A stretch of 64,000 nucleotides of DNA. Origin: Lachnospiraceae bacterium P6A3. Lineage in GTDB: Bacteria; Bacillota; Clostridia; Lachnospirales; Lachnospiraceae. Position numbers and translations under genes: made by a program. The stretch spans positions 868,001-932,000 of the forward strand of contig JNKP01000001.1 of NCBI GenBank assembly GCA_000702085.1, in the 5' to 3' direction. Below the pieces are notes generated by a model that saw only the letters and a list, made by a program, of their open reading frames with translations, was not told the origin of the DNA and ran no database searches. This document shows, one piece after another, positions 36,373-38,523 of this stretch (the stretch's first letter is position 1; the number at the start of each line of letters is the position of its first letter).

Positions 36373-36887
36373 AACACTTTCTCCATCATCCAAAATTCTC
36401 TTGTTCCGACCACCTCATAATACATCTTAATGCAGGATACTTCCTTATATCCGTCACCGATATACATTTTATAGGCAGGAATATTGGTATCTATAACATC
36501 CAGATGAATTGCCACGTCTCCGCCGTCTTTACAGATGTCATCAATATCTTTCAGGAACGCTTTTCCGACACCGCTTCCCTGTTTATCCGAAGAAACCGCA
36601 AGTGCATGGATTGTGGCTATTTTTTCCTTTGGTCCTTTTACTTTCCAATCTACACCATCATACTCGGGATTGACCTTATGATTTACAACAGCTGCAGCGA
36701 TAATCTGCTCTCCATCACGCAAAACATACATTTCATCGTTTTTAATAGCTGTATCTATAAAAGCCCCATCAGGATATGTATTAATGTTCCATCCTAGTTT
36801 TACTGAAGTAGTATTTACTTTTTCTATTGCCGATTCATATAAACGGAGAATTGCCTTTTTATCATTCGTTTTTGCAACTTCTGTCAT
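36369..36887 (-). CDS. GNAT family N-acetyltransferase
   Basis: 172 residues. The GNAT fold is seen in EQIIAAAVVNH (beta strand 3), IHALAVSSDKQGSGVGKAFL (motif A, acetyl-CoA pyrophosphate loop Q-x-x-G-x-G) and NIPAYKMYIGDGYKEV (motif B). Substrate is unknown. It heads the minus-strand transcript with fRMsr and has an extended -10 promoter upstream. That promoter lies back to back with the mgtE promoter. Confidence 0.88.
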   Translation of the reverse strand: MTEVAKTNDKKAILRLYESAIEKVNTTSVKLGWNINTYPDGAFIDTAIKNDEMYVLRDGEQIIAAAVVNHKVNPEYDGVDWKVKGPKEKIATIHALAVSSDKQGSGVGKAFLKDIDDICKDGGDVAIHLDVIDTNIPAYKMYIGDGYKEVSCIKMYYEVVGTREFWMMEKVL

Positions 36888-36917
36888 ATATATCCTTTCC
36901 TTTTTCAGATGCTAATG

Positions 36918-36923
36918 ATTATA
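36918..36923 (-). promoter_or_regulatory. Extended -10 of the GNAT operon
   Basis: Minus-strand TGGTATAAT (TG-N-TATAAT) about 30 bases before the GNAT start. The -35 region is poor and lies next to the divergent mgtE -35 (36946-36951). Confidence 0.5.
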
Positions 36924-36945
36924 CCATTTTTATGCCCAAAAAGCC

Positions 36946-36974
36946 TTGACTTTCGAGGTACATGAAAATAGAAT
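36946..36974 (+). promoter_or_regulatory. Promoter of mgtE
   Basis: TTGACT (36946-36951), 17 bases, TAGAAT (36969-36974). A start near 36981 gives a leader of about 190 bases before the mgtE ATG. Confidence 0.75.
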
Positions 36975-36980
36975 TAGGGC

Positions 36981-37173
36981 GGAAATCAAACTGATTTCAA
37001 ATCTATCGGAAGGGTGGTGATCATATGACAGGTGACAGTCGAAGTACTGATTCTGTTCCCCGAAGTACACATTATATGATCACGGCATTTTCTCGCCTCA
37101 CCACCCGGAACTCCCTTTAAAAGAGCATTCCCTGATATGGGGCGGGCTTTGCCGTCTCGAAGGGTGATGCAAA
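36981..37173 (+). promoter_or_regulatory. Structured mgtE leader, candidate translational switch
   Basis: A first hairpin GAAATCA-AAC-TGATTTC (36982-36998) opens the leader. A long-range helix follows: GGGTGGTG (37012-37019) with CACCACCC (37099-37106), stacked on ATCATAT (37020-37026) with ATATGAT (37074-37080). The same CACCACCC strand can instead pair with GGGTGATG (37162-37169), which is the mgtE ribosome site, with one mismatch. No M-box riboswitch blocks are recognisable. No T run precedes mgtE, so control would be on translation. See findings. Confidence 0.65.
37025..37120 (+). CDS. Leader peptide ORF of mgtE (31 codons)
   Basis: ATG at 37025 preceded by AAGGGTGG at eight bases, reading MTGDSRSTDSVPRSTHYM and continuing to TAA at 37118-37120. 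The start lies inside the long-range leader helix and its ribosome site is one strand of that helix. It has acidic residues and a proline in the first 12 codons, as in the Mg-sensing leader peptides of enterobacteria, but no sequence similarity is claimed. It may be regulatory rather than making a working peptide. It could be chance, since 31 codons is short. Confidence 0.5.
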   Translation: MTGDSRSTDSVPRSTHYMITAFSRLTTRNSL

Positions 37174-38523
37174 ATGGAAGAAAAGAAAGTATTTGACGAG
37201 CTTCTTACTCTCCTTGAAGGAAAAGAGTACGCGAAGCTCCGTGAGATTTTGTCCGAACACAACGATGCGGATATCGCCGCATGGATCGAAGAGCTGGACG
37301 AAGAACACATGCCTAAACTATTCCGTATACTGACCAAAGATCAGGCAGCGGATGTTTTCTCATACCTGGATGTTGATCTCCAACAGAAGATCATAAGTGT
37401 CATGTCCGATAAGGAAGCTGCGGGGATCATTGATAACCTGATGGCCGATGACGCTGCCGACCTGATGGAAGAAATGCCCGCTAACATCGTAACCAGGATT
37501 CTGGCTAAGGCAAGTCCCGACACAAGGCGTGAGATAAACCAGCTTCTGCGCTATCCCGAGGACAGCGCCGGAAGCATCATGACCGTGGAGTATGTTGACC
37601 TGAAGGAAAGCTCTACGGTAAAAGAAGCCATCGAGCGTATTAGAAGAGTCGGTGTTGATTCCGAGACCATCAATGTATGTTACGTTCTCGACAGCGGAAG
37701 GCACCTGATCGGAACCGTTGCACTCAGATATCTCCTCCTGTCAAAAGATGATGAGATCATCGGGGACATAATGCATGAGAATGTCATCGCGCTTAATACA
37801 CTGATGGACCAGGAGGAAGTTGCAAGGCAGTTCAAGAAATACGACTTCACCACCATGCCTGTTACGGATAATGAGAACAGACTGGTTGGAATTATCACGG
37901 TCGACGATATCGTGGATATTCTGGAAGAAGAGGCTACCGAGGACATGGAAAAGATGGCAGCTATTCTCCCTTCCGACAAGACATATATGAGGACCAGCGT
38001 TCTCGAGACATATAAAAAGAGAATCCCCTGGCTCCTGCTCCTCATGGTAAGTGCAACATTTACCGGAGCCATTATCAAATCATTTGAAGACGCATTAAGT
38101 GTATGTGCGGTTCTGGTTGCTTACATACCGATGCTGATGGATACGGGAGGAAATGCCGGAGGTCAGGCATCCGTTACCGTCATCCGTGGACTTTCACTCG
38201 GTGAGATAGAATACTCGGATGTACCGGGAGTTATCTGGAAAGAAATAAGAGTTGCGGTCTTCTGCGGACTTACATTGGCAGCTGCAAACTTCGTAAAGCT
38301 GCTTGTATTTGACAGACTTGCAATCCCCGTAGCGCTGACTATCTGCCTTACTCTTATAGCCGCCGTACTCATGGCAATGCTGATAGGATGTATGCTTCCC
38401 GTGGGAGCAAAGCGACTTGGATTTGACCCCGCGGTCATGGCAAGTCCCTTCATCACAACCATCGTCGATGCTCTTTCACTTCTTGCATATTTCAGAATAG
38501 CAACGATGATACTTAAACTATAA
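37174..38523 (+). CDS. mgtE: Magnesium transporter MgtE
   Basis: 449 residues, normal length. An N-terminal superhelical domain (about 1-130, EELDEEHMPKLFRILTKDQAADVFSYLD), two CBS domains (about 130-255, EDSAGSIMTVEYVDL and IIGDIMHENVIALN, then FTTMPVTDNENRLVGIITVDDIVDI), a plug helix, and five membrane helices (about 280-449) with YIPMLMDTGGNAGGQASVTVIRGL, the conserved pore region. It conducts Mg2+ inward and is gated by cytoplasmic Mg2+ through the CBS/N domains. Additional control through the leader is likely. AAGGG lies nine bases before the ATG. A bidirectional terminator follows. Confidence 0.95.
   Translation: MEEKKVFDELLTLLEGKEYAKLREILSEHNDADIAAWIEELDEEHMPKLFRILTKDQAADVFSYLDVDLQQKIISVMSDKEAAGIIDNLMADDAADLMEEMPANIVTRILAKASPDTRREINQLLRYPEDSAGSIMTVEYVDLKESSTVKEAIERIRRVGVDSETINVCYVLDSGRHLIGTVALRYLLLSKDDEIIGDIMHENVIALNTLMDQEEVARQFKKYDFTTMPVTDNENRLVGIITVDDIVDILEEEATEDMEKMAAILPSDKTYMRTSVLETYKKRIPWLLLLMVSATFTGAIIKSFEDALSVCAVLVAYIPMLMDTGGNAGGQASVTVIRGLSLGEIEYSDVPGVIWKEIRVAVFCGLTLAAANFVKLLVFDRLAIPVALTICLTLIAAVLMAMLIGCMLPVGAKRLGFDPAVMASPFITTIVDALSLLAYFRIATMILKL

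Follow-up and report, generated by a model that had tools for sequence, protein, structure and literature searches.

A leader open reading frame upstream of mgtE in Lachnospiraceae and its candidate role in a translational switch

Introduction

Short leader open reading frames (ORFs) that govern Mg2+ transporter genes have been described in enterobacteria. In Salmonella, mgtB translation is described as dropping when mgtQ is not translated, while the acidic residues of mgtQ lower its own translation, raise that of mgtB, and a helix formed between strands 2 and 3 frees the ribosome site (PMC8092293). In E. coli, dissociation of ribosomes at low Mg2+ has been described for the EPDP motif found early in the leader peptide MgtL (PMC11282234). 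A review of RNA polymerase pausing describes an mgtE riboswitch (PMC12288461).

The locus described here lies upstream of mgtE in Lachnospiraceae bacterium P6A3 and was analyzed within a 64,000-nucleotide stretch of contig JNKP01000001.1, hereafter the window. It resembles mgtQ-mgtB, as that system is presented in its report, in having a short ORF before a Mg2+ transporter gene and in its predicted arrangement of helices 1:2 and 3:4 opposed to a helix 2:3, with 3:4 hiding the transporter ribosome site; acidic small-ORF residues are needed there and control is translational (PMC8092293), and here an Asp is kept and control is presumably translational too. It differs in that mgtQ has 8 codons and mgtB is a P-type ATPase gene in a Salmonella operon (PMC8092293), whereas the Lachnospiraceae mgtE leaders run to ~29-69 codons, carry a Ser/Asp/Pro/Arg-Ser core and often extend out of frame over the start of their target gene. 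With E. coli mgtL-mgtA, as described, it shares an early acidic/Pro motif in the leader peptide and a downstream Mg2+ importer; mgtL, however, acts via a Rho-dependent terminator (PMC11282234), whereas here both ribosome sites are predicted to be masked, which suggests translational control. The window motif is also less acidic than the EPDP of MgtL.

Unlike leaders governed by the M-box (ykoK) riboswitch (RF00380), the window and its whole genome contain no M-box, as the original prediction had stated for the leader, the genome search having matched 2 of 14 control genomes. A conserved small ORF is likewise described in the M. tuberculosis pe20 M-box leader; its Mg2+ link is known, where ours is presumed, and it is riboswitch-driven (PMC12810186), where the window lacks an M-box. 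The Thioalkalivibrio mgtE motif SRC-65-1 is also a structured leader with the mgtE ribosome site in a stem (in SRC-65-1 the start as well), but it is presented as a riboswitch candidate from Thioalkalivibrio only, the text devoted to it mentions no leader ORF, and it is set apart here on that description (PMC11109978). No description of such an mgtE leader was found in the titles and abstract openings of the papers listed from the open-licence PubMed Central literature, preprints being outside this scope. By analogy, the leader looks as if it works like the enterobacterial Mg2+ leader ORFs at a different transporter; that likeness had been proposed from the window sequence and is upheld by the comparisons below. 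In sequence it is confined to short motifs and is probably convergent.

Results

Organization of the mgtE locus

The features from the putative promoter to the transporter gene were as follows.

36946 to 36974, + strand: promoter-like site TTGACT-17-TAGAAT (10/12 matches; 1.1 such sites expected by chance in the scan)
36982 to 36998, + strand: small 5' hairpin, GAAATCA-AAC-TGATTTC, close to where the transcript is expected to begin (folding)
37010 to 37017, + strand: leader ORF ribosome site AAGGGTGG (sequence)
37025 to 37120, + strand: leader ORF MTGDSRSTDSVPRSTHYMITAFSRLTTRNSL, 31 codons (ORF list; codon-position bias)
37049 to 37066, + strand: codons 9-14, D-S-V-P-R-S core, proposed slowing or destabilising motif (core kept in relatives; effect on the ribosome presumed)
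37174 to 38523, + strand: mgtE, Mg2+ transporter with MgtE_N, CBS and MgtE domains (domain search)

Both the promoter-like site and the 31-codon ORF with its own ribosome site had been called in the original prediction and are present at these positions, the ORF showing third-position bias across species. Strings resembling TTGACTTT...TAGAAT repeat upstream in relatives (judged by eye), which also have a strong purine-rich site in the position equivalent to the leader ribosome site. Folding placed hairpins of differing sequence where the 5' hairpin lies in several, not all, of 15 relatives, and this hairpin is perhaps a stability element. The leader peptide matched no NCBIfam or Pfam family, and the folding energy of the whole leader was unremarkable (z = -1.17; 29 of 200 shuffles folded equally well). 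A second MgtE-domain gene in the same genome (L002) has no such leader ORF in the ~400 bases upstream, as judged by eye.

Distribution among relatives

The window assembly was searched together with 30 others of its genus, and mgtE loci from relatives were drawn from the best 80 matches, 77 of which were used because L034, L038 and L094 came without upstream sequence; mgtE starts in relatives were set by rule rather than by annotation, and each distinct peptide or sequence entered the leader, frame and compact-folding tallies a single time. A leader ORF with the same core lies upstream of mgtE in 42 of these 77 related Lachnospiraceae loci (41 by rule plus L082, whose leader is plain to see), and no leader ORF was found by rule in 35 of the 77. 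At several of these 35 loci the coding end of another gene reaches up to mgtE, as judged by eye.

A covariance model, R1, was built from 17 compact leaders (alignment A2, 17 of 18 leaders; the compact layout is described below). In two strictly filtered scans that consequently under-count (the window itself scores just 25 bits), R1 matched 25 of 299 family genomes once each, with mgtE directly downstream in all 25, and gave 5 matches in 293 class genomes, three from the same family and two from outside it and away from mgtE. The L137 and L138 matches of the class scan (E = 1.5e-4 and 7.7e-4) have no MgtE at either locus and were treated as chance. Among 160 sampled family genomes, 81 encode an MgtE protein and 21 contain M-boxes. 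This leader class precedes 12 of the 70 mgtE loci examined from that sample (14 by rule, minus L190, which has another leader type, and L156, which is doubtful), the 70 being part of the sample's mgtE matches and the remainder mostly more distant or truncated ones.

Other leader-like ORFs were seen in the same searches. Nine loci from other Lachnospiraceae (L187, L195, L197-L200, L203, L205, L206) have a different leader ORF with an MDAGASYH-like start shortly upstream of mgtE, and an M-box lies ~140-440 nt upstream of the same mgtE in 8 of the 9, so that riboswitch and leader ORF may work in tandem there. A third type, beginning M-[DE]-G-x-S-x-R-S or similar and with a longer spacer to mgtE, occurs at L175, L176, L181, L189, L190, L192 and L194. 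At L166 and L168 the leader-like ORFs MDADSSGTAQVPIR and MDTDSCSGTTKVPIH lie upstream of mgtE, again with an early Asp and Val-Pro-Ile.

Two layouts of the leader

The same-core leaders occur in two layouts. Compact leaders (n = 50) start 67-127 nt upstream of mgtE, and 48 of 51 distinct R1-derived leaders cross the mgtE start, the other 3 ending upstream of it. All but one of the crossing leaders (47 of 48) are out of frame with mgtE, 24 in +1 and 23 in +2, and most of them stop 16-50 nt within the gene. Window-type leaders stop 48-65 nt upstream of mgtE, in any frame. The single in-frame leader (L128) would yield an N-terminally extended transporter.

Coding selection and the peptide core

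Codon-position differences were counted over a 24-base stretch at the motif, using pairs at least 60% identical over that stretch and leaving out L005 (longer start called) and L009. The 50 compact leaders gave 251, 250 and 616 differences at codon positions 1, 2 and 3, with 46% of changed codons synonymous in the true frame compared with 9% and 11% in the other frames; the 16 window-type leaders gave 87, 30 and 183, with 54% synonymous compared with 23% and 6%. No stop interrupts the true frame within the first 60 nt in any of the 50 + 16 leaders, which is partly by construction since leaders were chosen by their motif, while the other two frames contain a stop in 49/50 and 45/50 compact and in 16/16 and 15/16 window-type leaders. 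Judged from these substitution patterns, the leader ORF is under selection as a peptide.

The core approximates Asp-x-Pro-x-Pro-(Gly)-Arg-Ser in many leaders (for example STDNPLPGRS, SDIPLPRRS, VDVPLPGRS and STDIPPHERS, with STDSVPRST in the window). An Asp or Glu is followed by Pro, the last Pro falling at codons 8-18 in 49 motif-chosen compact leaders; in the window these residues are D9 and P12. Such a core could serve in attenuation by amino acids or EF-P, in which the Pro (and Ser, Arg) codons would respond to the supply of proline or to the activity of EF-P and not to Mg2+. The repetition of Pro and Arg-Ser codons within it would fit, as would the reported EF-P control of Salmonella mgtA translation (PMC6460261). 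Nevertheless, the number of Pro codons is low and variable (one in the window), an acidic residue is retained beside the Pro, and the gene downstream is mgtE at each of the 25 R1 matches, so that we regard attenuation of this kind as quite improbable.

Helices covering the two ribosome sites

Three helices, P1 to P3, were defined in the window from the following strands.

37012 to 37026, + strand: P1 5' arm, spanning the start codon and ribosome site of the leader (arm permutation, alignment)
37074 to 37083, + strand: inner part of the P1 3' arm, ATATGATCAC, whose start lies 16 nt downstream of the first Pro12 codon base
37099 to 37106, + strand: outer part of the P1 3' arm, CACCACCC, pairing with the leader ribosome site (arm permutation)
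37125 to 37133, + strand: P2 5' strand GCATTCCCT, masking the mgtE ribosome site (arm permutation, alignment)
37161 to 37170, + strand: P2 3' strand AGGGTGATGC, containing the mgtE ribosome site (arm permutation, alignment)
37082 to 37099, + strand: P3 5' strand, ACGGCA plus CTCGCCTC (arm permutation)
37139 to 37155, + strand: P3 3' strand, GGGGCGGG plus TGCCGT (arm permutation)

Arms from the same species were compared with arms mismatched between species in 18 window-type leaders, in permutation tests that keep shared ancestry in but whose control pairings were flat (714 and 1029 of 2000 for two controls). The own-species energies were -17.2 versus -15.8 kcal/mol for the outer P1 arm, -12.4 versus -9.2 kcal/mol for P2 and -21.2 versus -18.8 kcal/mol for P3, with 0 of 2000 permutations in each case, and 0 of 2000 likewise matched own-species pairing of the inner P1 arm. 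In compact leaders P1 joins the leader ribosome site and start codon to the segment directly upstream of the mgtE ribosome site, and P2 joins the segment directly upstream of the leader ribosome site to the mgtE ribosome site and spacer; the corresponding energies were -13.9 versus -10.6 kcal/mol for P1 and -10.6 versus -6.7 kcal/mol for P2 (0 of 5000 permutations for both, with n = 50 or with 39 less redundant leaders), and five control pairings showed no own-species excess.

An alignment of 16 of the 18 window-type leaders (A3; the close copies L011 and L037 were left out) was also examined. P1 and P2 together paired in 81% of cells, compared with at most 60% when slid, and column shuffles equalled them in 9/500 cases on score, 2/500 on cells paired and 259/500 on double-change pairs. 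For P2, 6 of 9 pairs were changed on both sides and 67% of cells paired, in columns that are uncertain. Taken as comparative evidence, these data argue that P1 masks the leader ribosome site and that P2 does so at the mgtE ribosome site. P3 paired in 85% of cells compared with at most 54% when slid, and its ACGGCA/TGCCGT pair is ATGGCA/TGCCAT in L008 and L009, but against column shuffles it showed no excess (53/500 on covariation score, 151/500 on cells paired).

The original prediction had CACCACCC pair either with GGGTGGTG (37012-37019), the leader ribosome site, or, with one mismatch, with GGGTGATG (37162-37169), the mgtE ribosome site. The first pairing is the outer part of P1, for which own-species pairing was best in all 2000 permutations, and the comparison of relatives supports both this pairing and a conserved ORF. 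The second is present in the window but not conserved across relatives: own-species energy was -8.1 and mismatched -8.7 kcal/mol in 18 leaders, 1837 of 2000 permutations were equal or better, and 61% of cells paired on the 16-sequence alignment with no excess covariation. P3 is the likelier alternative to P2, albeit with the mixed support given above; since it crosses both outer P1 and P2, two states are predicted, though not the proposed pair. Mutually exclusive predicted foldings thus survive from the proposed two-state switch, and a single strand choosing between both ribosome sites does not. The extension of the helix by ATCATAT (37020-37026) and ATATGAT (37074-37080) was similarly only half right, both segments being present but not as parts of a single helix: GTG at 37017-37019 can pair alternatively with 37081-37083 or with CACC, so that what was called an extended helix consists of two helices separated by a small GGC/GCC hairpin.

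In 31 of 49 compact leaders the last core Pro codon starts 14-21 nt upstream of the P1 3' arm, and in the window the distance is 16 nt; in the other 18 of the 49 it falls outside this range. A distance of 14-21 nt is about the reach of the ribosome's leading edge, and the agreement favours slowing as the active event. An anti-Shine-Dalgarno role of the Pro codons was rejected, the ORF arm showing no own-species excess in its pairing with the mgtE site (own -6.97, mismatched -7.22).

In most compact leaders both ribosome sites lie in one long hairpin, whose purine-rich internal loop repeats among these leaders and could be taken as the mark of a riboswitch that binds a ligand or folds with Mg2+, the leader ORF being incidental. 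The conserved loop letters, however, are the two ribosome sites themselves, conserved letters overall are codons and ribosome sites, and differences within the ORF, read in its true frame, sit at third codon positions. The Rfam scan that had been suggested for excluding an M-box or another metal riboswitch was run with Rfam 15, and it returned no match in the window at the gathering score, nor any in the leader stretch (36880-37250) at E up to 10. We therefore consider a riboswitch of this kind very unlikely indeed.

Predicted behavior of the switch

A translational switch for mgtE controlled by the leader peptide is the best explanation of the locus and, in our judgment, a probable one. According to this model, a leader translated rapidly or not at all would leave P1 (1:2) and P2 (3:4) closed and mgtE off. 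If the leader ribosome slowed down or dropped off at the Asp/Pro motif, ribosomes would keep strand 1 occupied, so that P1 would stay open, strand 2 (37082-37099) would pair with strand 3 (37139-37155) as P3, P2 would be excluded and mgtE would be translated. In the compact type, halting at the motif would place the ribosome directly upstream of the P1 3' arm and leave the mgtE site uncovered. That Mg2+ is the signal we infer from the motif and the identity of the target gene; the sign of the response is presumed as well.

Folding was calculated with and without ribosome occupancy. In 18 window-type leaders without a ribosome the mean unpaired probability was 0.22 at the mgtE site and 0.24 at the leader site; occupation of the 5' region brought the mgtE value to 0.45 (a rise of >0.1 in 11/18). 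Masking in 49 compact leaders was only partial without a ribosome (mean 0.47 at the mgtE site), and occupation of the 5' region gave 0.65, higher in 32/49. A halted ribosome by itself changed little in either layout (0.20 versus 0.22 in window-type leaders with the 5' strand free; 0.47 versus 0.47 in compact leaders); because it does not open the mgtE site, the model needs queued or repeated initiation. Leader translation is thus predicted by folding to open mgtE, and the same calculations do not discriminate between slowing and completion as the event that matters.

The mgtE site of the 18 window-type leaders was most open (mean 0.69) when the ribosome was placed at the stop codon of the leader, so leader completion could be the on state. 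This is what translational coupling would entail, with the ribosome that completes the leader ORF opening P2 and completion, not slowing, turning mgtE on: a finishing ribosome would cover the start of the P2 5' strand in the window type, and in the compact type it would cross the mgtE start and reinitiate there. The positions of the leader stops are compatible with it, lying 48-65 nt upstream of mgtE in the window type, while 48 of 51 leaders cross the mgtE start and most end 16-50 nt inside, from where reinitiation is plausible. On the other hand, if efficient leader translation turned the importer on, this would not of itself answer a Mg2+ shortage, and the conserved Asp/Pro core would then need some other reason; we judge coupling to be unlikely, and retain the leader-peptide-controlled switch as the preferred explanation.

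Discussion

The comparisons above lead us to a broader proposal, which we offer tentatively as one that may well be wrong but is a serious possibility: that Lachnospiraceae, independently of enterobacteria, evolved Mg2+-sensing nascent leader peptides for mgtE, in which, when Mg2+ is low, Asp-x-Pro-x-Pro-Arg would destabilise or halt ribosomes a fixed distance upstream of a masking helix. In the compact form the ORF would be maintained out of frame where it crosses the mgtE start, and a single ribosome would thereby both sense Mg2+ and occupy or clear the target site. The arrangement would work without an M-box, while other lineages would pair an M-box in tandem with different acidic leader peptides.

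If this is true, Mg2+ sensing by the ribosome via destabilising leader peptides would not be confined to enterobacteria but would have had a further origin, at an unrelated transporter, in a family of major importance in gut and rumen. The family would then offer dozens of natural variants for learning which nascent sequences render ribosomes Mg2+-sensitive, and the leader would hint at how mgtE is controlled where the M-box is absent.
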